Assembly (NCBI GenBank): GCA_944389505.1
Contig: CALXMP010000005.1
Coordinates: forward strand, 1 to 64,000
Direction: 5' to 3'
Length of the DNA stretch: 64,000 nucleotides
Source: an uncultured Spirochaetaceae bacterium
GTDB taxonomy: Bacteria; Spirochaetota; Spirochaetia; Sphaerochaetales; Sphaerochaetaceae
The notes beneath the pieces are model-generated. The model was not told where the DNA came from, did no database searches, and saw only the letters and a program-made list of their open reading frames with translations. The translations under genes were made by a program, and so were the position numbers. This document shows, piece by piece, positions 116 through 26,831 of this stretch. How positions within the stretch are numbered: position 1 is the stretch's first letter; every line of letters begins with the position of its first letter.

Positions 116-988
116 ATGAAGGCATTGAGTTTTGGAGAGATCCTCTGGGATATAGATGGTGATGTCAGGACATTGGGCGGTGCACCGCTGAATGTTCTTG
201 GACATATATCAAAGCTTGGCGGCGATTGTTCCGTCATAAGCGCTGTAGGCGATGATGAACTTGGAAAGGAGACGCTTTCCAGGATTGATAGCCTCGGTAT
301 TGACAGAAGCTTTGTCAGCATATCAGCGTATGAGACTGGAAAAGCACTTGTTGCATTGGATAATGGAATTCCTTCATATTCATTCCCGGATCCATCTGCA
401 TGGGATGATATAAAGCTATCGGATGCAGAGAAGGAGAAGCTCTGCAGTACGCCGTTCGATGTATTCATCTATGGAACACTGGCATCGAGGCATAGCGTAT
501 CGCGTGGGACGCTTTGCTATCTCCTTGAGAACATAAAGGCATCAGAGTTCTTCTTTGACGTCAATCTCCGGCTTTCATTCTATTCTGCAGAGCTCATTGA
601 AGAATGTCTGAAGCATGCGACGATTCTGAAACTGAACAATGATGAGGTTCCTGTTGTGTCATCGCTTCTTGGCATGGATGAAAAGGACTTTCCGTATGAG
701 GTACAGAGAAGATTCCCTGTCAGGAAGGTTCTGATATCATTAGGTAGCAAAGGCTCTGTATGCTTTGAAGGCAATAATGCGATAAATGCCGAAGCTGGGA
801 AGGTCAAGGTGATTGATACAGTTGGGGCTGGCGATAGTCTCTCTGCAGCGTTTCTGTATTTCCTCAGCATGGGCGATGATACAGCTGCTGCCCTCTCAAA
901 GGCCTCAGCCCTCGCTGATTATGTTGTGACAAAGCGCGGTGCGATACCAGATTATGATGAGGATATAAGGAGAAGGCTGAATGCCTGA
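116..988 (+). CDS. PfkB-family carbohydrate kinase (fructokinase-like)
   Basis: A ribokinase-fold sugar kinase of 290 residues, usual for the family. It would phosphorylate a sugar using ATP in the cytoplasm. Visible family marks are the N-terminal GGAPLNV segment after the first strand, and the C-terminal DTVGAGDSLSAAF anion-hole and catalytic-base motif near residues 238-250. The start is set by an AAAGGAGAA ribosome site at 102-110. It is a single gene after the rRNA operon terminator with no linked transporter, so the substrate is not indicated; fructose is the likeliest guess from the N-terminal motif. The downstream phosphatase has its own promoter-like sequence. Confidence 0.85.
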   Translation: MKALSFGEILWDIDGDVRTLGGAPLNVLGHISKLGGDCSVISAVGDDELGKETLSRIDSLGIDRSFVSISAYETGKALVALDNGIPSYSFPDPSAWDDIKLSDAEKEKLCSTPFDVFIYGTLASRHSVSRGTLCYLLENIKASEFFFDVNLRLSFYSAELIEECLKHATILKLNNDEVPVVSSLLGMDEKDFPYEVQRRFPVRKVLISLGSKGSVCFEGNNAINAEAGKVKVIDTVGAGDSLSAAFLYFLSMGDDTAAALSKASALADYVVTKRGAIPDYDEDIRRRLNA

Positions 989-1027
989 TCCATAGACTAA
1001 AACGCTCACCTTTGGTATAGAAATGCT

Positions 1028-1453
1028 GTGAATATCCTTTTTGTCTGTCATGGGAATATATGCAGGTCACCGATGGCCGAGGCAGTGTTCAGAAAGCTTG
1101 CTGATGACCGTGAGCTTGGTGATCGGTTCAATGTATCCTCGTCTGGAGTAAGCAGCGAGGAGTCCGGCAATGATATCTATCCACCTGCTAAAGCAGAGCT
1201 AAGGAGAAGGGGCATACCGTTTTTCAGAAGGTCTGCAAAGCGCATAAGCGATAGGGAATTCGAGGATTATGATCTTATCATCGCACTCGATCGTTCTAAC
1301 CTAGCATCTCTCAGACGCCGTTTCGGTGATAGCCCGAAGATCAGGATGCTGCTTGACCGCGATGTGGCTGATCCATGGTATACCGATGATTTCGTCACAG
1401 CATATGATGATATATTAAAAGGATGTGAGAGGCTCCTTGATTCGCTTGCATAG
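1028..1453 (+). CDS. Low-molecular-weight protein-tyrosine phosphatase
   Basis: A 141-residue cytoplasmic phosphatase. The N-terminal CHGNICRS loop gives the CX5R catalytic signature (nucleophile Cys7, Arg13), and the general-acid Asp115 sits in the DPWY motif at 115-118. These are the complete hallmarks of the LMW-PTP/arsenate-reductase fold; the protein is slightly shorter than the usual 150-160. The start is GTG with no ribosome site. A TATAGA hexamer at 1016-1021 ends 6 nt before the GTG, so the mRNA may be leaderless. Its partner kinase or substrate is not visible nearby. Confidence 0.9.
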   Translation: MNILFVCHGNICRSPMAEAVFRKLADDRELGDRFNVSSSGVSSEESGNDIYPPAKAELRRRGIPFFRRSAKRISDREFEDYDLIIALDRSNLASLRRRFGDSPKIRMLLDRDVADPWYTDDFVTAYDDILKGCERLLDSLA

Positions 1454-1479
1454 GCAATGAGGCATGGTATCATCAGGGT

Positions 1480-2427
1480 ATGAAGAAGATCCTTGTTGTT
1501 ATCATGCTGTCTCTGGCAGCTGTCAGCCCCGTATTCTCCGCTCCAAAGGATGTGGAGCCTTTAGTGATACTATCGCTGGCAGCCCCTGCCTTGATTGCTG
1601 CGGAGAATCCCGGAGGAGATGTTGATCTGTCCATGACGGATCAGGCTATGCTTCTGATGATACCTGAAGAGATCAGGCGTTCAGGTATCAGGCTTGCTGG
1701 AATTCTTTCCGATAATGTCATCACGATAGCGAATGAAGGGCTGAAGGTGGCCATGCTTTATGCCGGATTCGATGATGTGGATATCATAGGAGCGGGAGGT
1801 TATGTCTCCTCTTCCTTTGATATGGATGCTATTGAAACGGATAGACTGTTCAGGACTCAGATTTCATTCGATGATGCCAGCGCAATATATAAGTTCGGAT
1901 CCAGGACATCCAGCACCTCGCTTGATGGCACAATCCTCCTTTCTCTTTCCATCTTTTCCGAGCCGCTCTTCTCATTGTATATCGATACCGGGGATATATT
2001 GATATCAGGGAATGAAGGCTATCAGGGCAATGTGCTGGAGATCCGTGTCGATCTCAATGAGGATGCCGTCTATTCCTATTTCGATATGGCAGGTATCAGC
2101 CTGGAGGATGCGAGGATGAATGCAATCATGATGTTCATGATGTTTGGCGGCGCTGATTATGATGATGCTATAGGGATGGATCTCTCCTCAATGGATTACA
2201 ATGAGATAGTGTCTGTCCTTTCCGAGGGGAATCTTCTGGATGTGCTTGATGCAGCGGCATTCTTCTTTGAGGCAAGCAATGACCCTGCAATGGATATCCC
2301 CGGAATTGCAACTGTCGCGCTGAAGCCTTCCCTCTACCTCAATGGCAGCCCTGTCCCGGGTGTGGATCTTGAAAAAGCCATGAACCGCTTCATGGATATC
2401 TACAGCCTTGCCGAGATGATCGGGTAG
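1480..2427 (+). CDS. Exported protein of unknown function
   Basis: I do not recognise this 315-residue protein. It begins with a clear Sec signal peptide (MKK, hydrophobic core, cleavage near SPVFSA-PK, about residue 22). The mature part is acidic, has no cysteine pattern and no repeats, and alternates beta-prone stretches with Asp/Met-rich segments, so a periplasmic or outer-surface role is plausible. There is no ribosome site; TATCAT at 1468-1473 ends 6 nt before the ATG with TTGCAT 16 nt further upstream, consistent with a leaderless transcript. It is probably lineage-specific. Confidence 0.7.
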   Translation: MKKILVVIMLSLAAVSPVFSAPKDVEPLVILSLAAPALIAAENPGGDVDLSMTDQAMLLMIPEEIRRSGIRLAGILSDNVITIANEGLKVAMLYAGFDDVDIIGAGGYVSSSFDMDAIETDRLFRTQISFDDASAIYKFGSRTSSTSLDGTILLSLSIFSEPLFSLYIDTGDILISGNEGYQGNVLEIRVDLNEDAVYSYFDMAGISLEDARMNAIMMFMMFGGADYDDAIGMDLSSMDYNEIVSVLSEGNLLDVLDAAAFFFEASNDPAMDIPGIATVALKPSLYLNGSPVPGVDLEKAMNRFMDIYSLAEMIG

Positions 2428-2482
2428 GTGGTCACAAAGAGCAGTTTTCCTGCTATATTAGGAATATAGGAGCTTAGTTATT

Positions 2483-3328
2483 ATGGATATTCGCTATTCA
2501 ACAGGCAAAGAGCCTTTCAAGAGAATGAATACCGATGAACTCAGGAATGAGTTCCTCATCACAGATATCTTCCTTCCGGATGATGTCACCGCTGTATACT
2601 CCCATGTCGACAGAATTGTGACAATGGGTGCTATGCCAATCAAGGAGACAATCTCCATCGATAAGAACATCGACTGCTGGAAGAACTTCGGCGTTGATTA
2701 CCTTCTTGAGAGAAGGGAGCTTGGCGCTATAAATATCGGAGGAAAGGGAAAGATCATCGCAGATGGCACAGAGTACGCTATGGATCATTTCGATGGTATC
2801 TATATCCCTATGGGAACAAAGGATGTGAAGTTCTCATCCGATGATCCTTCGGATCCTGCCAAGTTCTATATGTGCACGACACCTGCACACCGCCCGTATC
2901 CTGTAAAGCTCATCCCTCTCAAGGATGCCATCCATAAGCATCTTGGATCGCAGGCAACATCGAACGAGAGAACAATCAATCAGTATATCCACCCGGATGT
3001 GCTTGATACCTGCCAGCTCTCGATGGGACTTACTCACCTCGAGCCGGGTTCTGTATGGAATACGATGCCTGCGCATACGCATGAGAGGAGAATGGAAGTC
3101 TATTTCTACTTCGAGATCCCAGATGACAACGTTGTCTTCCATTTCATGGGAGAGCCATCTGAGACGAGGCATATCGTTATGCACAACGAGGAAGCTGTCA
3201 TCAACCCATCATGGTCAATCCACTCTGGATGCGGTACTTCGAACTATACCTTCATCTGGGCTATGGCCGGTGAGAACAGGGCATATGATGATCAGGATGT
3301 CCTGAAGACCGATAAGGATCTCAGATAA
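2483..3328 (+). CDS. kduI: 5-keto-4-deoxyuronate isomerase (4-deoxy-L-threo-5-hexosulose-uronate ketol-isomerase)
   Basis: KduI converts 4-deoxy-5-ketouronate, released from pectin or glycosaminoglycan disaccharides, into 2,5-diketo-3-deoxygluconate. The 281-residue protein resembles E. coli KduI (278 aa) along its length. The cupin zinc ligands are all present: His198, His200 and Glu205 in HTHERRME, and His247 in SWSIH. The start follows an AGGAG at 2469-2473 with a somewhat long spacer. It stands alone here: KduD, polysaccharide lyases and unsaturated glucuronyl hydrolase are not in the window, so the uronate pathway must be completed elsewhere. Confidence 0.95.
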   Translation: MDIRYSTGKEPFKRMNTDELRNEFLITDIFLPDDVTAVYSHVDRIVTMGAMPIKETISIDKNIDCWKNFGVDYLLERRELGAINIGGKGKIIADGTEYAMDHFDGIYIPMGTKDVKFSSDDPSDPAKFYMCTTPAHRPYPVKLIPLKDAIHKHLGSQATSNERTINQYIHPDVLDTCQLSMGLTHLEPGSVWNTMPAHTHERRMEVYFYFEIPDDNVVFHFMGEPSETRHIVMHNEEAVINPSWSIHSGCGTSNYTFIWAMAGENRAYDDQDVLKTDKDLR

Positions 3329-3349
3329 TCATACGGTATGACTATGCTT

Positions 3350-3376
3350 AAGGCTGCAGCAATGCAGCCTTTTGCT
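3350..3376 (+). terminator. Terminator after kduI
   Basis: AAGGCTGCA and TGCAGCCTT form a perfect 9-bp stem with a GCAA tetraloop, ending in a short T stretch. It lies 22 nt after the kduI stop. Confidence 0.75.
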
Positions 3377-3479
3377 ATCATTGGGGATCTGTAAATCAAC
3401 ATTGTGAGGATACAATCAGCATTGTATACCTGTTTCTTAATCCAGATATCTGATATAAATAGACTTCGGAGTATTTTAT

Positions 3480-4472
3480 ATGCAGATAAGGCTAAGGAAT
3501 CTGAAGCGGAACTATGCATCGCTCCATGCTGTCGATGATGTTTCGCTTGATATACCATCCAACACAGTCTATGGCATCATAGGACGCTCGGGGGCTGGAA
3601 AGTCCACGCTTGTCCGTCTTGTATCGATGCTTGAGAAGCCTGATCAGGGTGAGGTCTATTACGATGACAAGCGTGTCGATAACCTCTCAAAGGAAGAGCT
3701 GATCCAGGAAAGGAGGAAGATCGGTATGATCTTCCAGAACTTCAATCTCTTCTCTTCCAGGAATGCTGAGGATAATATCGCCTATCCGATGGAGATATGC
3801 CATATGGATAAGGCTTATATAAAGAAGCGCACGGCAGAGCTTCTTGCTCTTGTAGGGCTTGAAGGGCGTGGCAGTGCTCCTATATCCACGCTGTCGGGCG
3901 GACAGAAGCAGAGGGTAGCGATTGCAAGGGCGCTTGCTGTGAAGCCCGAGATACTCTTCTGCGATGAGGCGACAAGTGCTCTCGATCCTCAGACAACGAG
4001 AGCGATACTCTCTCTTATCAAGGAAATCCAGAAGAAGATGAACCTCACTGTCGTGATGATCACTCATCAGATGGAGGTAGTCCGCGATGCATGTGACCGT
4101 GTTGCGGTGCTGGATGCAGGCCATATCGTTGAGGAAGGTCCTGTCTCGGATATCTTCGCTTCCCCCAAGAGCGATGTGACGAAGGATTTCCTATCATCGC
4201 TTACAAATGTCCATGAGTCCATTGTGCGCTGGTCGAATGATGGCGGGCACTATACGCTGCGCTTCCGCGGAGGTGCTACCGATGAGCCTATCATCTCCAC
4301 AGTCTCCGCAAAGACAGGTGCTGTGTTCAATATAAGGGCAGCAGGTGTGCAGACTGTCAATGGTGAGGAGCTTGGTGTGATGATCACTGATATCGGGCCG
4401 GATGGGAAGACTGCAGCGGAAGCTGTCAGGCTTCTTCAGGATATGGGCGTATTGGTAGAGGAGGCTGAGTGA
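3480..4472 (+). CDS. metN: Methionine ABC transporter, ATP-binding subunit
   Basis: The ATPase that powers D/L-methionine uptake with MetI and MetQ. At 330 residues it has the full MetN architecture: Walker A GRSGAGKST (35-43), signature LSGGQ (138-142), Walker B ILFCDE (158-163), H-loop His196, and a C-terminal NIL domain (about 255-330) that senses intracellular methionine. The GGAG at 3468-3471 precedes the ATG by about 8 nt. It overlaps metI by one base. metQ is detached (5485), with a terminator between. Confidence 0.95.
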   Translation: MQIRLRNLKRNYASLHAVDDVSLDIPSNTVYGIIGRSGAGKSTLVRLVSMLEKPDQGEVYYDDKRVDNLSKEELIQERRKIGMIFQNFNLFSSRNAEDNIAYPMEICHMDKAYIKKRTAELLALVGLEGRGSAPISTLSGGQKQRVAIARALAVKPEILFCDEATSALDPQTTRAILSLIKEIQKKMNLTVVMITHQMEVVRDACDRVAVLDAGHIVEEGPVSDIFASPKSDVTKDFLSSLTNVHESIVRWSNDGGHYTLRFRGGATDEPIISTVSAKTGAVFNIRAAGVQTVNGEELGVMITDIGPDGKTAAEAVRLLQDMGVLVEEAE

Positions 4473-5158
4473 TGGATGCTGTAATGTCTTTCTTCCAGTC
4501 TACGATGTTTACGCTTGTTGTGCAGGCAACATGGCAGACGCTTGTCATGGTCTTCCTTTCGACGATCTTCTCCATGATACTTGGACTGCCGATAGGAATC
4601 CTTCTCCATGTGACTTCATCAGAGGAGCAGGGAGGTATAATCCCGCATCCTGTCTTCTACAATGTCCTTTCGCGTATTGTGAATATACTGAGATCGTTCC
4701 CGTTCATAATACTCATGATTGTCCTGATGCCTCTCTCCAGGCTTATAATCGGCACAAGCATAGGAACGATGGCTACCGTGATCCCGCTTTCGATAGCTGC
4801 GGCTCCATTTGTCGCAAGGATCATAGAGTCTGCGCTCAAGGAAGTCGATCCTGGTGTTGTACAGGCAGCACGTGCCATGGGGTCGACGAACTGGCAGATA
4901 ATCCTCAAGGTTCTTATACCCGAGGCTCTTCCTTCGCTTGTTTCCGGCGTCACGCTTACGATCATCAATCTCATAGGCTATTCAGCTATGGCAGGAGCCA
5001 TAGGCGGTGGCGGACTCGGTGACCTTGCAATCCGTTATGGATACCAGAGATTCAGCCCGTCATATATGGTCTCTGCTGTCATCGTAATCATTGTCATGGT
5101 TGAGGTGATACAGTTCATCGGAGACAGGATAAGCGCTCATCTGATTGCTAAACGCTGA
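4472..5158 (+). CDS. metI: Methionine ABC transporter, permease subunit
   Basis: A 228-residue integral inner-membrane permease with five to six hydrophobic helices and the EAA-like loop around EVDPGVVQAARAMGS, where MetN docks. The length is normal for MetI (about 217-230). I prefer ATG 4472, which overlaps the metN stop as TGATG and has AGGAGG 7 nt upstream, over the GTG at 4469. It is translationally coupled to metN. Confidence 0.93.
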   Translation: MDAVMSFFQSTMFTLVVQATWQTLVMVFLSTIFSMILGLPIGILLHVTSSEEQGGIIPHPVFYNVLSRIVNILRSFPFIILMIVLMPLSRLIIGTSIGTMATVIPLSIAAAPFVARIIESALKEVDPGVVQAARAMGSTNWQIILKVLIPEALPSLVSGVTLTIINLIGYSAMAGAIGGGGLGDLAIRYGYQRFSPSYMVSAVIVIIVMVEVIQFIGDRISAHLIAKR

Positions 5159-5210
5159 TTGGATATGCAGGTTATCTGAAAAATTTAAGATATTTTAATT
5201 ATTTATAAAG

Positions 5211-5242
5211 CAGGAAGATAGCATAATTTCTTCCTGTTTTTT
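5211..5242 (+). terminator. Terminator between metI and metQ
   Basis: CAGGAAGA pairs with TCTTCCTG around a 10-nt AT-rich loop and is followed by six Ts. It would uncouple metNI from metQ. Confidence 0.78.
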
Positions 5243-5335
5243 CATAAAATTTGCATCAGCCGCATGGAATTTATGTTGCATATTCTTGCACCTTTATGCA
5301 TAATCAAGGCATCAAAGATAAAGGAGAGCACGATT

Positions 5336-5398
5336 ATGGCAAAGACATTATCCATCATATCCATGCGCATGTTCTCCATGATGCCCGTGAGGGCATAA
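5336..5398 (+). CDS. Candidate methionine-rich leader peptide upstream of metQ
   Basis: A 20-codon ORF, MAKTLSIISMRMFSMMPVRA, with a textbook AAGGAG at 5321-5326, 9 nt before its ATG. Met occurs at positions 1, 10, 12, 15 and 16, so a quarter of the codons are Met. The last Met-Pro codons form the 5' arm of a perfect hairpin (ATGCCC 5381-5386, GTGA loop, GGGCAT 5391-5396) that runs to the stop codon. The position 86 nt before metQ, the gene for a methionine-binding protein, fits a ribosome-stalling attenuator. No known family is claimed. Confidence 0.5.
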   Translation: MAKTLSIISMRMFSMMPVRA

Positions 5399-5484
5399 TA
5401 CTTCTATTCCACCACATTTCTATAATTGTTCAGGGTCCTTCGGGATATCGTAATACTTAATCGAATTATTTTGGAGATATATTA

Positions 5485-6288
5485 ATGAAAAAGACTTTTG
5501 CTGTTCTTGCGGTGCTTCTTATCGCAGTATCTGTTTTCGCTTCCGGTTCCAAGGAATCCGCTGATTCCAATGTCATCAAGGTTGGTGCAACACCCGATCC
5601 GCACGGTGTGCTTCTCGGTCTTGTGAAGGACGATCTCGCTGCTCAGGGAATCGACCTCCAGATTGTCGAGTTCACGGATTATGTGACACCTAATGAGGCC
5701 CTTGCTTCTGGTGATATCGATGCTAACTACTTCCAGCACCTTCCGTATATGGAGAGCGCAAATGCAGAGCGCGGCTACAAGCTTGTGAATGCTGGCGGCA
5801 TCCACATCGAGCCTCTTGCAGTATACAGCGAGAAGTATGATTCACTCGAGGCTATCCCCGATGGAGCAAGGATTGCTATTCCTAATGATCCTACGAATGA
5901 GGGAAGAGCTCTTCTCCTTCTCCAGAGCGCAGGTCTCATCACTCTTAAGGCTGACGCTGGTCTTGAAGCTGTTCCTTCCGACATCGCAGAGAATCCGCAC
6001 AACTTCTCATTCTCCGAGATTGAGGCTGCATCGCTTCCACGTGTTCTTGCAGATGTCGATGCTGCTGTAATCAATGGCAACTATGCTATCCCTGCAGGTC
6101 TTATCGCAACACGTGATGGTCTCTTCATCGAGAATGCAGATAGCCCGTATGTGAATGTCATCGCAGTCAATGATGGCAACCAGGACGATCCTAAGGTACA
6201 GGCTCTTGTCGCAGCTCTCAAGGGAGATAAGGTAAGGGAGTATGTTGCAGAGCGCTATCCTAACGGAGAGGTCGTACTCGTAGACTAA
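5485..6288 (+). CDS. metQ: Methionine ABC transporter, substrate-binding protein
   Basis: A 267-residue MetQ/NlpA-family periplasmic protein that delivers methionine to MetNI. Family features include the early VGATPDPHG segment, DYVTPNEALASGDIDANYFQH, and the NGNYAIPAGL stretch near the ligand site. The signal peptide ends SVFASGSKES and has no lipobox cysteine, unlike classical MetQ lipoproteins. It is expressed separately from metNI: terminator, 326-bp gap, leader ORF. The ribosome site is GGAG at 5472-5475. A strong terminator follows. Confidence 0.94.
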   Translation: MKKTFAVLAVLLIAVSVFASGSKESADSNVIKVGATPDPHGVLLGLVKDDLAAQGIDLQIVEFTDYVTPNEALASGDIDANYFQHLPYMESANAERGYKLVNAGGIHIEPLAVYSEKYDSLEAIPDGARIAIPNDPTNEGRALLLLQSAGLITLKADAGLEAVPSDIAENPHNFSFSEIEAASLPRVLADVDAAVINGNYAIPAGLIATRDGLFIENADSPYVNVIAVNDGNQDDPKVQALVAALKGDKVREYVAERYPNGEVVLVD

Positions 6289-6311
6289 TCAGGTCCTTTA
6301 TTTCTGATTCC

Positions 6312-6351
6312 GAAGGCTGTTCTGGATGATTCCGGACAGCCTTCTTTTTTT
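6312..6351 (+). terminator. Terminator after metQ
   Basis: GAAGGCTGT and ACAGCCTTC form a 9-bp stem, extended by further G-C pairs, and are followed by seven Ts. Confidence 0.92.
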
Positions 6352-6363
6352 GCGAAATCCCGG

Positions 6364-6410
6364 TCTGAAACGGACTTTTTCAATAAAAATTGCAATTTTG
6401 TCCGTTTCAG
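6364..6410. repeat. 47-bp palindromic direct repeat, copy 1 (upstream of ATPase gene)
   Basis: The ends CTGAAACGGAC (6365-6375) and GTCCGTTTCAG (6400-6410) form a perfect 11-bp inverted repeat. The interior holds a second palindrome, AAAATTGCAATTTT. A copy differing at 3 of 47 positions lies at 7696-7742, so the two bracket the ATPase gene. Confidence 0.93.
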
Positions 6411-6418
6411 GCTAGTAT
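6390..6418 (+). promoter_or_regulatory. Promoter of the repeat-bracketed ATPase gene
   Basis: TTGCAA (6390-6395), a 17-nt spacer and TAGTAT (6413-6418). The -10 ends 6 nt before the ATG, implying a leaderless mRNA. The -35 lies inside repeat copy 1. Confidence 0.55.
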
Positions 6419-6424
6419 TTCATT

Positions 6425-7687
6425 ATGGTTAAGAATCTTTTTCCCAGAACCAGATATCTGGATAGAATCAGACCCTTCTATCACGATGAGGAGATGATCA
6501 AGGTCGTTTCAGGGGTTCGCCGCTGCGGTAAATCATCCCTTCTTTCGCTGGTTCGGGAAGAGCTTATTGCTTCTGGAGTGCCGAAGGAATCGATTCTCAG
6601 TATCAATCTCGACAAGAGACCCTATAAAAGCGTGAAGACTACCGCTGCTCTGGAGAAGATAGTCGATGGCTTCTTTTCCGGGGTCGAAGGCATGAAGTAT
6701 CTCTTTATTGATGAGATCCAGAATGTGAAAGGCTTTGAGGAGACAATCAATGCCTATAGGGAGGAAGGTGATTATTCCATTTTCATCATAGGCAGCAATT
6801 CATATATGCTCTCAGGGGAGCTTGTCACAAAGCTGACTGGCAGATACATCGAAATGCGCATGACGACGCTTACATTCGAAGAGTATCTGAAGATGAAGGC
6901 ATTTTATGGGAAGCCTGTGCTGGATGATCTTGAGAAGGAGCTTAACAATTACATCCTTGAAGGCGGTTTCCCTCGTGCTGTGATGTACGATACGCTTGAA
7001 CAGAAGCGGGTATACGTCCAGAGCGTAGTTGATGAGATTTTCGATAAGGATATAAAGCATAACAGGAAGATACGCAAGAAGAGGCTTTTTGATCTGATAA
7101 TGCAGTTCATAATAAACAATTTCGGATGTACTGTATCTGTTGATAAGCTTACAGCGAATCTGAAGTCGATTCTCAGGGAGAATGTCAGAAAGGAGACGGT
7201 ATACAGATACATCAATGAGATGGAGAATCTCCGTATCATAAGCCGCTGCAGCAGATTCGACCTTAAAAGCAAGCGGTCCCTCAGAGGAGATGAGAAGTAC
7301 TATCTTTCCGATCTCAGCTTCTATTTCCTTCGCAATACAGATAACAGGATTCCTTATGGTCCTGTGCTTGAGAATATCGTATACCAATACGCGGAGAGCC
7401 TATCATACTCTGTCAGTGTCGGAAAGATTGGCAATCTTGAAGTTGATTTCATCCTCCGCAAGCCTGATATGGATTATGCGTATGTACAGGTTGCAATGTA
7501 TATCTTCAATGGTGCAGAGGACGGTTCCGGTGTGAATCAGACAGAGGAAAGGGAGTATAGATCTCTTGAGGCTATCCGCGATTCATACCCGAAGTTCCTG
7601 CTTACCCTTGATCATATGCATCAGAGAAGGAACGGAATCGTCCATGCTAACCTCGCAGAGTTCATAAAAGAAGGGAAGATGTTCTGA
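6425..7687 (+). CDS. AAA-family ATPase with DUF4143-type C-terminal domain
   Basis: A 420-residue solitary ATPase of the AAA_14/DUF4143 family; its function is not established. Walker A is RRCGKSS near residue 35, Walker B is YLFIDEIQNV (about 96-105), and a sensor-like FIIGSNS follows. The C-terminal third has GNLEVDFIL then YVQVA, resembling a degenerate PD-(D/E)XK nuclease core in which the final lysine is missing. There is no ribosome site and the transcript appears leaderless. Copies of a 47-bp palindromic repeat end 14 nt before the start codon and begin 9 nt after the stop, so the gene and its repeats form a compact unit of about 1.4 kb. The neighbours are unrelated. Confidence 0.85.
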   Translation: MVKNLFPRTRYLDRIRPFYHDEEMIKVVSGVRRCGKSSLLSLVREELIASGVPKESILSINLDKRPYKSVKTTAALEKIVDGFFSGVEGMKYLFIDEIQNVKGFEETINAYREEGDYSIFIIGSNSYMLSGELVTKLTGRYIEMRMTTLTFEEYLKMKAFYGKPVLDDLEKELNNYILEGGFPRAVMYDTLEQKRVYVQSVVDEIFDKDIKHNRKIRKKRLFDLIMQFIINNFGCTVSVDKLTANLKSILRENVRKETVYRYINEMENLRIISRCSRFDLKSKRSLRGDEKYYLSDLSFYFLRNTDNRIPYGPVLENIVYQYAESLSYSVSVGKIGNLEVDFILRKPDMDYAYVQVAMYIFNGAEDGSGVNQTEEREYRSLEAIRDSYPKFLLTLDHMHQRRNGIVHANLAEFIKEGKMF

Positions 7688-7695
7688 AATCTCTA

Positions 7696-7742
7696 TCTGA
7701 AACGGACTTTTTCAATGAAAATCGCAATTTTGTCCGTTTCGG
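7696..7742. repeat. 47-bp palindromic direct repeat, copy 2 (downstream of ATPase gene)
   Basis: Matches copy 1 (6364-6410) at 44 of 47 positions and lies in the same orientation. One change turns the promoter-like TTGCAA of copy 1 into TCGCAA, and another breaks the outermost pair of the stem. It begins 9 nt after the ATPase stop codon. Confidence 0.93.
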
Positions 7743-7852
7743 TAGCTATTTGGCACATATATAGTTCTGCATATTGTGAGCTCTCCTGATAATATTGATT
7801 GCATTGGCATCTGCCCGGGATGATAATCTCTTCTGGAAAGCAAGGAGGAGCT

Positions 7853-10800
7853 ATGGAAGGCTGGAATCAGAAGGGACGGATGATCATCATCACGGAGAGA
7901 ATCTCCCAGTTCATAAAGGAGCTGAAGGAGAGAAGCATAGCAAGGCGTATTCCGCTCTCCGCTTCCGTATACGTTACCGATGAAAGGCTTCCGCTTAAGG
8001 ATACCATCAATTTAGAGCGCAGGCCGATACAGCCCGGGACTGAATGGGGCAGGAACTGGCGGTCCGGATACTTCCTGCTTGAGGCTGATGTGCCTGATGA
8101 TTTCCCTTGTTCTGATGCCTTCCTTTCAGCAGATCTTGGAGGCGAGGTGCAGATCTATGATGATGAAGGCAATGCTCTTTTCGGCCTGACGGATAGATCT
8201 GCTTTCGATTGCAATTATGTGAAGAGCGAGGAACGGTTTGCAGTCGTTCCTGGTCATTGCAGAATCTATGCAGAAGCTGCTGCCAATAATCTCTTCGGGT
8301 TATCAAGGCGCGAGATGAAGTTCTCAAGGAACATTCCGGAACCTGAAGGGCGGCATATCGGTATATTCCGCTATGCTGACATTGCTATAATCGACAAGAA
8401 GCTCCATGAGCTCTATGTCTCCATGGATGCGCTCTTCGATCTCTATCAGAGTATCGATGGGAATTCGATCAAAGCCGTCAGAATCATATCGTCGCTCTTT
8501 GATGCGATGACAGCATTCTCAAGATCAGGTACGGACGAGGCTTTGGCGATTATAAGGAAGGAGCTGGCAAAACCTGCATCGGCTTCCTTCCTTTCCACTG
8601 CTGTTATAGGCCATGCCCATATCGATACAGGCTGGCTGTGGCCTATTGCGGAGACTCACCGCAAGGTAATGCGTACATTCTCCAGCCAGATTGTGAATCT
8701 GGAGAATTATCCGGAATATATCTTCGGAGCATCATCGCCTCTTCATTATGAATGGGTGAAGACTGAGCAGCCAGAGCTTTACCAGAAGGTGAAGGATGCT
8801 GTGGCTGAGGGACGGTGGGAATTGCTTGGCGGCATGTGGGTAGAACCTGACTGCAACCTTGTATCAGGGGAATCCCTTGTGCGCCAGATACTGGAAGGGA
8901 AGAATTTCTTCAGAAAGGAATTCGGGAAGGATGTGAGAACGTGCTGGATTCCGGATTCCTTCGGATATCCTGCATCCCTTCCGCAGATTCTGGCGAAGTC
9001 CGGCATCCGGTATTTCTCTACGCAGAAGATTTCATGGTCGCTCTCCAACCAGTTCCCGCATGACAGCTTCATATGGGAAGGTGTTGACGGAAGCCAGGTT
9101 GTTGCTCACTTCCTTCCAGAGCATACATACAACTCCTCAGGAAACTTCGGATCGCTTCTGAGAGCGCAGGAGAATTTCCTGGAGAAAGACAGACTGGATG
9201 AATTTGTGACGGCACTTGGCATAGGTGATGGCGGTGGCGGGCCGAAGGCCGAGCATATTGAGAGGATATTGCTTGCCCATGATACCGAAGGTGTTCCCAG
9301 AGCATCGTTCTCATCTGTCGAGGATTTCTTTGACCGCCTTGCAATGTGTGAGGATAAGCTTTCGTATTATAGGGGTGAGCTGTATCTGGAATTCCATCGC
9401 GGCACATACACATCTCAGGCGAGGAACAAGCGTATGAACAGGATGGCAGAGGAGGCTCTGAAGCCTGTTGAGGCTCTGGATGTGTATCGAGGAGGTCTGT
9501 TCAGCAATCAGATAAAGGATGCTCTCCATACCATGCTTGCATTCCAGTTCCATGATATCCTTCCTGGATCAAGCATCGGGGCTGTATACAGGGAGACAGA
9601 GGAAGGATACAAGGCCGTATTCACTGCTTTCTCGGATGCCCTCTCAGGAGCCTTGGACTCATCAGGATGTGGATGCTATGGATTCACCTCATCCTTCGCC
9701 TCTCGGAACAGCCATGGCAGAATGGGCTATTTGACGGTATTCAGCGGAGACGGATACAGACTTCCGCATATCGTTAAGCTTCCAGCCTGTGATGTGCTCC
9801 CGTCTTCCTGCGGTGGACGTGGTATACAGGAATACCAAGGAGAATTGTATATCAATGCAGAATTATCAAGCCAGAATTGGAATATATTCAATCTTGATTA
9901 TTCTGATAAGCTACGGCAGAATCCGGTGCTTGATGCAAGCAATCTTGTACTTGATAACGGCAGGGTCCGCTATGAATTCGATTGCCATGGCCATCTTCTG
10001 AAGGGAATATTCAGGAAGAGCGGCTTCGAATTCACATATTCCGGCATCGGAAATGTCCTTAAGCTCTATGCGGATGAGCCGCATGTATATGATGCCTGGG
10101 ATATTGAGTACTACTATCCGGAGATGGAGTGCTCACCGGTTGAGTGCATCTCCGCATCGCGCAGTGCCGATGGACCTGTCTTCTCTGCGCTGAGATTCTC
10201 TTTCCGGGCAGGAAACTCCCTCATAGAGCAGGATGTCATCCTTCCGAATGATTCAAATGAGATATATTTCAGGACGAAGGTGCAGTGGCATGAGGAGAAG
10301 AAGCTTCTGCGGGTTTCATTCCCATGTGATCCCATGGTTGATTTCTGCACCTCTGACATCCCATACGGAGAGATACATAGAAAGACACATGTCCAGAATG
10401 AATGGGATGCTGCAGCCTTCGAATTCCCTGCGCGTCTTTTTACCGATGTAAGCAACGATAGGGGAGTTGCACTTGCATCCGACTGCAAGTATGGATACAG
10501 CGTCAGGGATGGGCGCATCGGCTTAAGCCTTCTCAGAAGTCCTCTTGATCCCGATCCATACGCTGACCAGGGAGAGCACGAGTTCACATATACTCTCATC
10601 CCCCATGAAACATCGCTTCCAATCAGTCATGTCAGGGAGATTGCTTCCTATCTCTCTTCATCGCATCTTGCAATACTCAGTGAGAACATACCAGACTTTG
10701 CTTCTGCTCCTTCGGGCTATGAGGTTGCAGGCGATCATGTGCATATCACTGCATATAAGATGGCTGAGGATGGGGACGGTGCAGTGCTGAGGCTTGCTGA

Positions 10801-25370: not shown

Positions 25371-25432
25371 ACTGATTGCATTATCATTGATTTTGAATTC
25401 AATGAAAAATATTCATTGATTTAAAAATCAGT
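25371..25432. promoter_or_regulatory. Nested palindromic operator region upstream of ATPase gene
   Basis: Three half-sites alternate in orientation: TCATTGA (25384-25390), TCAATGA (25399-25405) and TCATTGA (25413-25419), at 14 to 15 bp spacing. The block is framed by ACTGATT (25371-25377) and AATCAGT (25426-25432). It ends 13 nt before the start codon, next to the AAGGAG. Confidence 0.65.
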
Positions 25433-25445
25433 ATAAGGAGCTACA

Positions 25446-26831
25446 ATGTTTTACCATCGCCAGAAGGAAATTGGTACTATCCGGAGTTTCTTCACCGACA
25501 GGAAGCATGCCCTTCTTGTTTATGGTAAGAGGCGTGTAGGGAAGACTACTCTCATAAATAAAGCACTTGAGGATTTTGAAGGCAAGGTTGTCTCATTCCA
25601 GTGCACAAGCGAAAGCTATGAGAGCAATTGTGTACAGCTGATGAAGGAGATAGAGCTATCTCTTGGAAGGGAATTCGGACGCTTTGATTCATTTCATGAT
25701 ATCTTCCGTTTCCTTGTTAGTCTTGATGTTCCGATTATGGTCGTTCTGGATGAGTATAATGAGCTGAAAGACTCATATGGCGGGGTGCAGGCCGATTCGA
25801 TGATGCAGAAGATTATCGATAGCCTTGCAGGAACAAATGTTCGAGTCATTCTGTCAGGATCTGCCATTTCGGTGATGGCAGAGCTTCTGGATTCCTCTAA
25901 TCCGCTTTTCGATCGGTTTGCCGTCGCATTGAAGATAAATGAATTTGATTATTATGAGGCATCCTCATTCATTGAGAAATGGAGTATCAGGGATAAGGTG
26001 TCTGCATATTCTGTATTCGGAGGCTCTCCTGCAGCACTGGAATATATAGATAGTTCAGCCTCGCTCGAATCGAATATCAAGCGGCTGGTTGTTGATCCGA
26101 GGGGCAGTGTCCGTGCTCTTGTGGAGAATACGCTCCTAAAGGAGTTCAATAAGATAGGACCTGTACTTAGCATACTTAACCGCATTGGCAATGGTAAGAG
26201 AACCTACAGAGATCTAAGGGAGGTATTCGATCAGAAGAATACTGGCAACCTTTCGAGATGGCTGTCAAAGATGGTGGCGAATGATGTTGTCACCAGATCG
26301 TATCCGATAAATGAGGATGAGAACAGCAAGCATGTTTTCTATTCAATCGGTGACAATTTGTTCCGGTTTTATTTTACATATGTATACCCGAATCGATCGA
26401 GGATAGAGAATGTAGGCGTGGATGCGGTCTACGATAATCTTATCAAGCCATCACTGGATATGTATTTCAGTTATCGTTTTGAAGATGTTGCCAGACAGTA
26501 TTTCTCAATGCTTGCGAAAGCAGGGAGGCTGGATGGCATTATCGGTATTGGAAGCTATTGGTATGATGACCGGAAAAGACAAGCAAATGGTGAATTTGAT
26601 GTAGTGCTGGAATTCATCAATGGTTACGATGTTTTCGAGGTAAAGTTCCTGAAGAACAAGATGACTGAGAAGCTTGCTGCCACTGAAGCTGAGAAGATCA
26701 GATCCATCGAATCATTCAAATCGCGGAGGATAGGATTTGTCTCCATTGAAGGGTTTGATTTCACATCCAATGAGTATGTTCTTATTGATGGGAATATGCT
26801 GTTCAGTGTGACTTCTCAGCAATTGGCGTGA
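25446..26831 (+). CDS. AAA-family ATPase with C-terminal nuclease-like domain (DUF234-type)
   Basis: A 461-residue ATPase of the archaeal-type ATPase group. Walker A is GKRRVGKTTL (about residues 31-40), Walker B is IMVVLDEYNEL, and a sensor ILSGSAISVM follows. A winged-helix-like middle (YRDLREVF...NLSRWLSKM) leads to a C-terminal segment with GEFDVVLEF then VFEVKF, which keeps the Asp...Glu-x-Lys core of PD-(D/E)XK nucleases. Function is not established; some relatives are in mobile or defence-like settings. AAGGAG precedes the ATG. A nested palindromic region upstream suggests tight, possibly self-imposed control. Confidence 0.82.
   Translation: MFYHRQKEIGTIRSFFTDRKHALLVYGKRRVGKTTLINKALEDFEGKVVSFQCTSESYESNCVQLMKEIELSLGREFGRFDSFHDIFRFLVSLDVPIMVVLDEYNELKDSYGGVQADSMMQKIIDSLAGTNVRVILSGSAISVMAELLDSSNPLFDRFAVALKINEFDYYEASSFIEKWSIRDKVSAYSVFGGSPAALEYIDSSASLESNIKRLVVDPRGSVRALVENTLLKEFNKIGPVLSILNRIGNGKRTYRDLREVFDQKNTGNLSRWLSKMVANDVVTRSYPINEDENSKHVFYSIGDNLFRFYFTYVYPNRSRIENVGVDAVYDNLIKPSLDMYFSYRFEDVARQYFSMLAKAGRLDGIIGIGSYWYDDRKRQANGEFDVVLEFINGYDVFEVKFLKNKMTEKLAATEAEKIRSIESFKSRRIGFVSIEGFDFTSNEYVLIDGNMLFSVTSQQLA

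Follow-up and report, generated by a model that had tools for sequence, protein, structure and literature searches.

A lone ATPase gene between two copies of a palindrome

Why is a lone ATPase gene bracketed by two nearly identical palindromes in the same orientation? The question arises in the window analyzed here, the first 64,000 nucleotides (forward strand) of contig CALXMP010000005.1 from an uncultured Spirochaetaceae bacterium, in which gene P0001 (6425..7687, + strand, 420 aa) has one palindrome on either side. We propose, with a probability of roughly 55%, that gene and palindromes form a single-gene mobile element, with direct palindrome copies as its ends and as its sole gene an AAA+/winged-helix/PD-(D/E)XK-like ATPase that mobilizes the unit and represses its own expression.

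The palindrome is 46 bp long, with 11-bp arms, CTGAAACGGAC and GTCCGTTTCAG, around an AT-rich 24-bp spacer. The left (L) palindrome (6365..6410, + strand), which also holds the gene's promoter, ends 14 nt before the ATG at 6425, and the right (R) palindrome (7697..7742, + strand), a direct copy of L, starts 8 nt after the stop codon (7687). The copies match at 44/47 positions (6364-6410 versus 7696-7742), and the inner palindrome AATTGCAATT of the L copy reads AATCGCAATT in the R copy. An outer left extension of the repeat (6353..6364, + strand; consensus GAAAAnCCnnTCT) is discernible in most elements, and such outer extensions lengthen the full repeat to ~70 bp, GAAAAnCCnnTCTGAAACGGAC-N24-GTCCGTTTCAGAnnGGnTTTTC. 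A sequence-only reading of this locus had described the near-identity and orientation of the copies, their arms and the inner palindrome, and our recount agrees, as it does for the 14-nt gap; the 9-nt gap it gave after the stop codon was one nucleotide too long.

P0001 matched PF13173 (AAA_14; E 4e-30) and PF13635 (DUF4143; E 9e-11), both above the Pfam gathering score, and contains Walker A and Walker B motifs, placing it in the AAA_14-DUF4143 family. A count of the gapped arm pair across the 2.1-Mb genome gave two occurrences and no more, against 0 for a reversed-pattern control, indicating that it is neither a chance occurrence nor a dispersed repeat. The sequence-only reading had been wary of an abundant dispersed repeat unlinked to DUF4143 genes, a possibility that the count of two genomic copies rules out. 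A general terminator or riboswitch was also ruled out, as the palindrome has no Rfam match.

The unit occupies unrelated sites in related genomes

A protein search of 100 related genomes revealed that ten members of the same genus hold orthologs forming a tight clade, at 68-74% identity, with the same palindrome just before the start codon and again at the stop. In a palindrome survey of 48 genomes of the genus, the palindrome occurred almost exclusively with the ATPase gene and with no other gene: 12/48 genomes were filled, 5/48 had one solo copy and the remainder had none. The search for the repeat with and without the gene, which the sequence-only reading had suggested, thus recovered one-copy empty sites as well as filled ones. 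When 7-19 kb around each site were compared by tblastx, the gene and its palindromes were essentially the sole common part, the exceptions being the sister pair G035/G037, a loosely shared neighborhood in G002 and G012, and short flank stretches in G010, G029 and G033. The elements sit intergenically between housekeeping genes, often convergent ones, with neighbors that include NUDIX/HflX, Fe-ADH/pseudouridine synthase, GlgC/rubrerythrin, BipA, MgtC/xanthine dehydrogenase and Glu dehydrogenase; the immediate neighbors at the window site are likewise housekeeping genes.

The nearest relative (L073, from genome G019) aligns to window positions 727-6411 and then directly to 7686-10058, at ~92% identity. 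At the exact window locus this genome has one palindrome and no gene, with 6411 joined to 7686, so that the sequence missing from this empty site corresponds to the gene plus one palindrome, a unit of 1332 bp (6365..7696, + strand). A second filled/empty pair is formed by G020, which is filled, and G021, which has a one-palindrome version of the same site whose core is inverted relative to the flanks. At three loci with preserved gene order, element-free relatives have plain intergenic DNA with no palindrome, indicating that the palindromes arrive with the gene.

Exactly one copy at empty sites could also mean that the palindrome is a pre-existing attB-like target for the unit, with solo copies as unoccupied targets. 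This is very unlikely, since no genome has more than one solo copy and the majority lack any, since orthologous sites in relatives are without any palindrome, and since the spacer of the G019 solo copy matches the element at the same site (22/24) better than any other (next best 16/24). The solo copies are instead best read as scars of element loss. From these genome comparisons, we conclude that insertion of the unit in these gut spirochaetes has hit many intergenic sites unrelated to one another, that both palindromes come along, and that loss of the gene leaves one palindrome behind.

Three elements, those of G010, G029 and G033, are 94-95% identical, whereas chromosomal segments of the same species are 70-76% identical, indicating recent transfer between species. 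The ratio of nonsynonymous to synonymous substitution rates, 0.06-0.11, indicates that the protein is under selection and kept functional. In addition, the L and R spacers agree at more positions within an element (17.8/24) than between elements (13.4/24; permutation p=1e-5; G002 and G012 flipped), as if each insertion rebuilt both copies from one. The mobile cassette that the sequence-only reading had listed among its options is therefore well supported by unrelated contexts, filled/empty pairs, palindrome-free sites in relatives and element identity above chromosomal identity, and the single-gene unit is very probably mobile.

Some sites have additional features. A 136-bp stretch left of the G010 element, considered as an insertion sequence (IS) with the same end, was rejected because it corresponds to shared flank. 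In G033, an IS21-type element lies between that 136-bp flank and the ATPase element; this istA/istB element (L119, G033:C23, 1850-4500) is inserted into the ATPase element's outer left arm, with an apparent 8-bp duplication, TTCGAAAC. Many members of the genus share a dispersed ~165-bp repeat, AAGAGCATGTG...CACATGCTCTT (L118 9980-10160, L121 8273-8422, G000 contig ends), which adjoins one ATPase element and forms the end of an insertion within a second (G020). Finally, the elements of L120 and L113 (G002 and G012) lie near the same two-gene neighborhood in differing positions and orientations, raising the possibility of a hot spot.

Variation of the palindrome within and beyond the clade

The arm spacing is 24 bp throughout, with the G021 solo copy (25 bp) as the only exception, and the spacer sequence varies freely. 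In most orthologs the R copy begins inside the stop codon of the gene (TTC TGA AACGGAC). The G035 element has a palindrome variant with diverged arms, and half-sites co-vary within the element in G035 and G014. In G020 an insertion interrupts the gene, whose parts lie on two contigs, and its two palindromes, considered as two separate sites, were reassigned to one element broken over the two contigs.

No relatives of the clade were found in viral contigs, and none of eight plasmid homologs inspected had a clear palindrome pair; one of them, L290, has a palindrome upstream and a weak match to it downstream. Non-spirochaete matches in a pattern scan of 84,980 genomes (Eubacterium, Paraprevotella, Streptomyces and others) were discarded as chance or terminators, having unrelated spacers and no ATPase. 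In L118 (G010:C29, 6872-13645), three AAA_14-type ATPase genes occur within 7 kb, with the palindrome-flanked one in the center.

A promoter within the left palindrome

In the window, a -35 element, TTGCAA (6390..6395, + strand), lies within the palindrome spacer and is followed at a spacing of 17 bp by a -10 element, TAGTAT (6413..6418, + strand), with transcription predicted to start at about the ATG (leaderless); in the R copy the -35 hexamer is altered to TCGCAA. The promoter, which the sequence-only reading had pointed out, proved to be general: in 10/10 elements tested, the L copy has a -35-like hexamer at the same spacer position (<=1 bp) and a -10 just outside. The ten L-copy promoters have 17-18 bp between hexamers and lie shortly before the start codon, and R copies score lower. 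Because the -35 is inside the L palindrome, a protein bound to the palindrome would cover the promoter, and from this we infer autorepression by the ATPase. The self-regulated unit that had been suggested earlier thus stands as to its anatomy, from which the regulation itself is argued.

A promoter within the L copy would also be compatible with a transferred defense gene that has an upstream autoregulatory operator and a downstream regulatory hairpin and that was moved by ordinary illegitimate or homologous recombination. The score of P0001 against PADLOC PDC-S01 fits such a gene, as do several other AAA_14 genes with an upstream palindrome only (e.g. window 25379-25436). This explanation leaves unaccounted for the exact boundaries, the likeness of the copies within elements, the precisely flanked solo copies and the roughly one dozen unrelated sites; the carriers lie among housekeeping genes, not in a defense island, and a downstream copy with a regulatory role would have no need to follow the spacer of the upstream one. 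We therefore regard it as improbable.

Predicted structure of the ATPase

An AlphaFold2 model of P0001 (38 sequences; mean predicted local distance difference test score 90.6, predicted template modeling score 0.91) comprises AAA+, winged-helix and PD-(D/E)XK-like folds. The structure search used the whole model, and the listed matches all fall on the AAA+ part: for residues 1-307 they are the archaeal ATPases 2QEN/2FNA (VIA Z 17.2, 271 residues, root-mean-square deviation 3.5), NLR/CED-4 STAND proteins, and Orc1/Cdc6 (2QBY, a chain from a DNA-bound structure; VIA Z 14.1). Orc1/Cdc6 proteins bind repeated origin sites. P0001 resembles Orc1/Cdc6 and the 2QEN/2FNA-type ATPases (VIA Z 14-17) in having a winged helix after its AAA+ core but differs in substrates and in having an additional PD-(D/E)XK-like C-terminal domain. 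In this domain, residues 311-394 follow the order of elements in a PD-(D/E)XK core (alpha-beta-beta-beta-alpha-beta), as read from the model, and E316, D341 and Q355 are highly conserved among 107 homologs. The winged helix and AAA+ parts of the model, together with the half-sites that co-vary within elements, make palindrome recognition plausible, and the ATPase itself probably recognizes the palindromes.

A possible mechanism and points against it

We propose that an ATPase oligomer would bind the four half-sites. Bound at the left end, the ATPase would cover its own promoter and so repress itself; paired at both ends, it would bridge them and drive or license excision and insertion by means of its nuclease-like domain. 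If the intermediate were circular or ended in hairpins and had one palindrome, fill-in of the long staggered ends would account for the step from one palindrome to two, although this step is a guess. That the ATPase is the mobility protein of the unit is our best guess for now, at slightly less than even odds.

Alternatively, the unit could be a passenger cassette whose palindromes serve as sites for a recombinase acting in trans, from the host or an IS (integron-, Xer- or IS200/605-like), with the ATPase as cargo, e.g. a defense gene. The unit carries no recognized recombinase, the combination of its gene with a single palindrome is reminiscent of an integron cassette or pdif module, and its family is a PADLOC defense candidate, all of which would suit a passenger. 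However, attC cores (RYYYAAC/GTTRRRY) were found in 0/24 palindrome copies, the best match to a dif-like 28-bp XerC/XerD site was 15/28 (compared with the dif sequence of E. coli), the units are single rather than in arrays, and the palindrome accompanies no other gene in the 48 genomes. In addition, different AAA_14 lineages have palindromes of their own, indicating that the site follows the ATPase. We consider a passenger unlikely.

Judged by its sequence, the unit fails the tests for classification as an integron, IS or dif module. Like an integron gene cassette, it is an exchanged unit of one gene and one palindromic site, with direct copies bracketing the gene, but it differs in having many chromosomal insertion sites and neither attC cores nor arrays. 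With IS200/IS605 and REP/RAYT it shares a single gene and palindromic ends in the same strand orientation, but it has no HUH transposase, its 24-bp spacer is of fixed length, and a full palindrome is left after gene loss.

Several observations weigh against a self-mobilizing element. Mobility is read from sequence comparison, not from observed transposition or DNA binding, and the clean-site relatives are too diverged for the exact target or a short target duplication to be read. No genome among the 48 has two element sites, the palindrome is absent at a 55%-identical ortholog in G005, and most AAA_14 genes at 107 loci tested show no palindrome pair; many of the genomes are draft metagenome-assembled genomes, making the counts approximate. 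The single open reading frame (ORF) of the unit contains no DDE, HUH, serine or tyrosine recombinase Pfam domain, with no genome-wide search made for a recombinase acting in trans. Finally, the catalytic Lys of PD-(D/E)XK is replaced by A, C, S or T in nearly all of the 107 homologs, so that canonical cleavage is doubtful and the chemistry uncertain.

Relation to candidate defense genes

P0001 matched PADLOC PDC-S01 with an E value of 2.7e-119 across residues 1-416 and belongs to the same protein family. PDC-S01, in which an ATPase is joined to a domain of the PD-(D/E)XK superfamily, is a single-gene candidate identified through guilt-by-embedding; in a 2026 paper it ranked as the fourth most common defense across prokaryotes, with most PDCs awaiting validation (PMC12988326). 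In rumen genomes it is the most frequent individual locus (PMC13356809). PDC-S01 is described as a defense gene, whereas carriers of the window type, with palindromic ends and solo scars, lie among housekeeping genes, and no defense-island location was seen at the window site or the roughly one dozen orthologous sites, as judged from immediate neighbors. Palindromic ends, solo scars or single-gene mobility were not found described for this family in the open-access literature, nor was a phage-protection assay of this protein, which is weak evidence because subscription journals and preprints fell outside that scope.

Should the family prove to be a mobile element, a defense role would not be required to explain why it is so abundant and why it clusters with other accessory genes, and tallies of defense systems would have to be revised. 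A 1.3-kb unit would then offer a means to test a new kind of gene mobility. Should the gene be cargo instead, the unit would still exemplify single-gene transfer in minimal form, with precise boundaries and scars that can be read, and the half-sites that co-vary would still predict which DNA is recognized by each ATPase.

Palindromes of other AAA_14 lineages

Twelve of the 107 AAA_14 loci had the same 6-bp-armed palindrome on both sides, most of them in the window's own clade, compared with 0.7% for mismatched flanks and 2/193 for other ORFs. Other AAA_14 lineages carry different palindromes at similar positions. These include the GTAGAATTCTAC palindrome in G000 and G017, ATAGTTTTT..AAAAACTAT at L139, TTTCGC..GCGAAA at L173, CTGAAAAAATTGCGGATGCCGCAAAAATTTCAG, which occurs three times around L447/L448/L450, and a ~40-bp repeat at L444. 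We tentatively suggest that at least some of the AAA_14-DUF4143 (PDC-S01) ATPases constitute single-gene mobile elements of a new, autonomous class. The ATPase would serve both as mobility protein and as repressor of its own unit, would act on palindromic ends specific to its lineage and would spread without a known recombinase.

For the GTAGAATTCTAC lineage, the G000:C1/G019 pair was rejected as a clean empty site because a further 1.6 kb is missing. Pairs of GTAGAATTCTAC sites 257-671 bp apart (G041:C9:83568/84239 and G028:C14:39818/40075), with no ATPase gene detected nearby, are possibly decayed elements. Within the window, positions 25379-26831 hold a second AAA_14-like ORF together with a palindrome, ACTGATT..AATCAGT (25379-25436), upstream of its start, with no downstream copy seen; the same palindrome is likewise upstream of its L072 ortholog (6211-6258). 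Finally, on the reverse strand of L124 (G006:C23, rc 1857-2966), a Fic-family gene has TTATAA-type palindromic sites on both sides, among them CTTATAAACGTTCTGCAG, which is repeated downstream; a further candidate-defense family may thus have a comparable arrangement.
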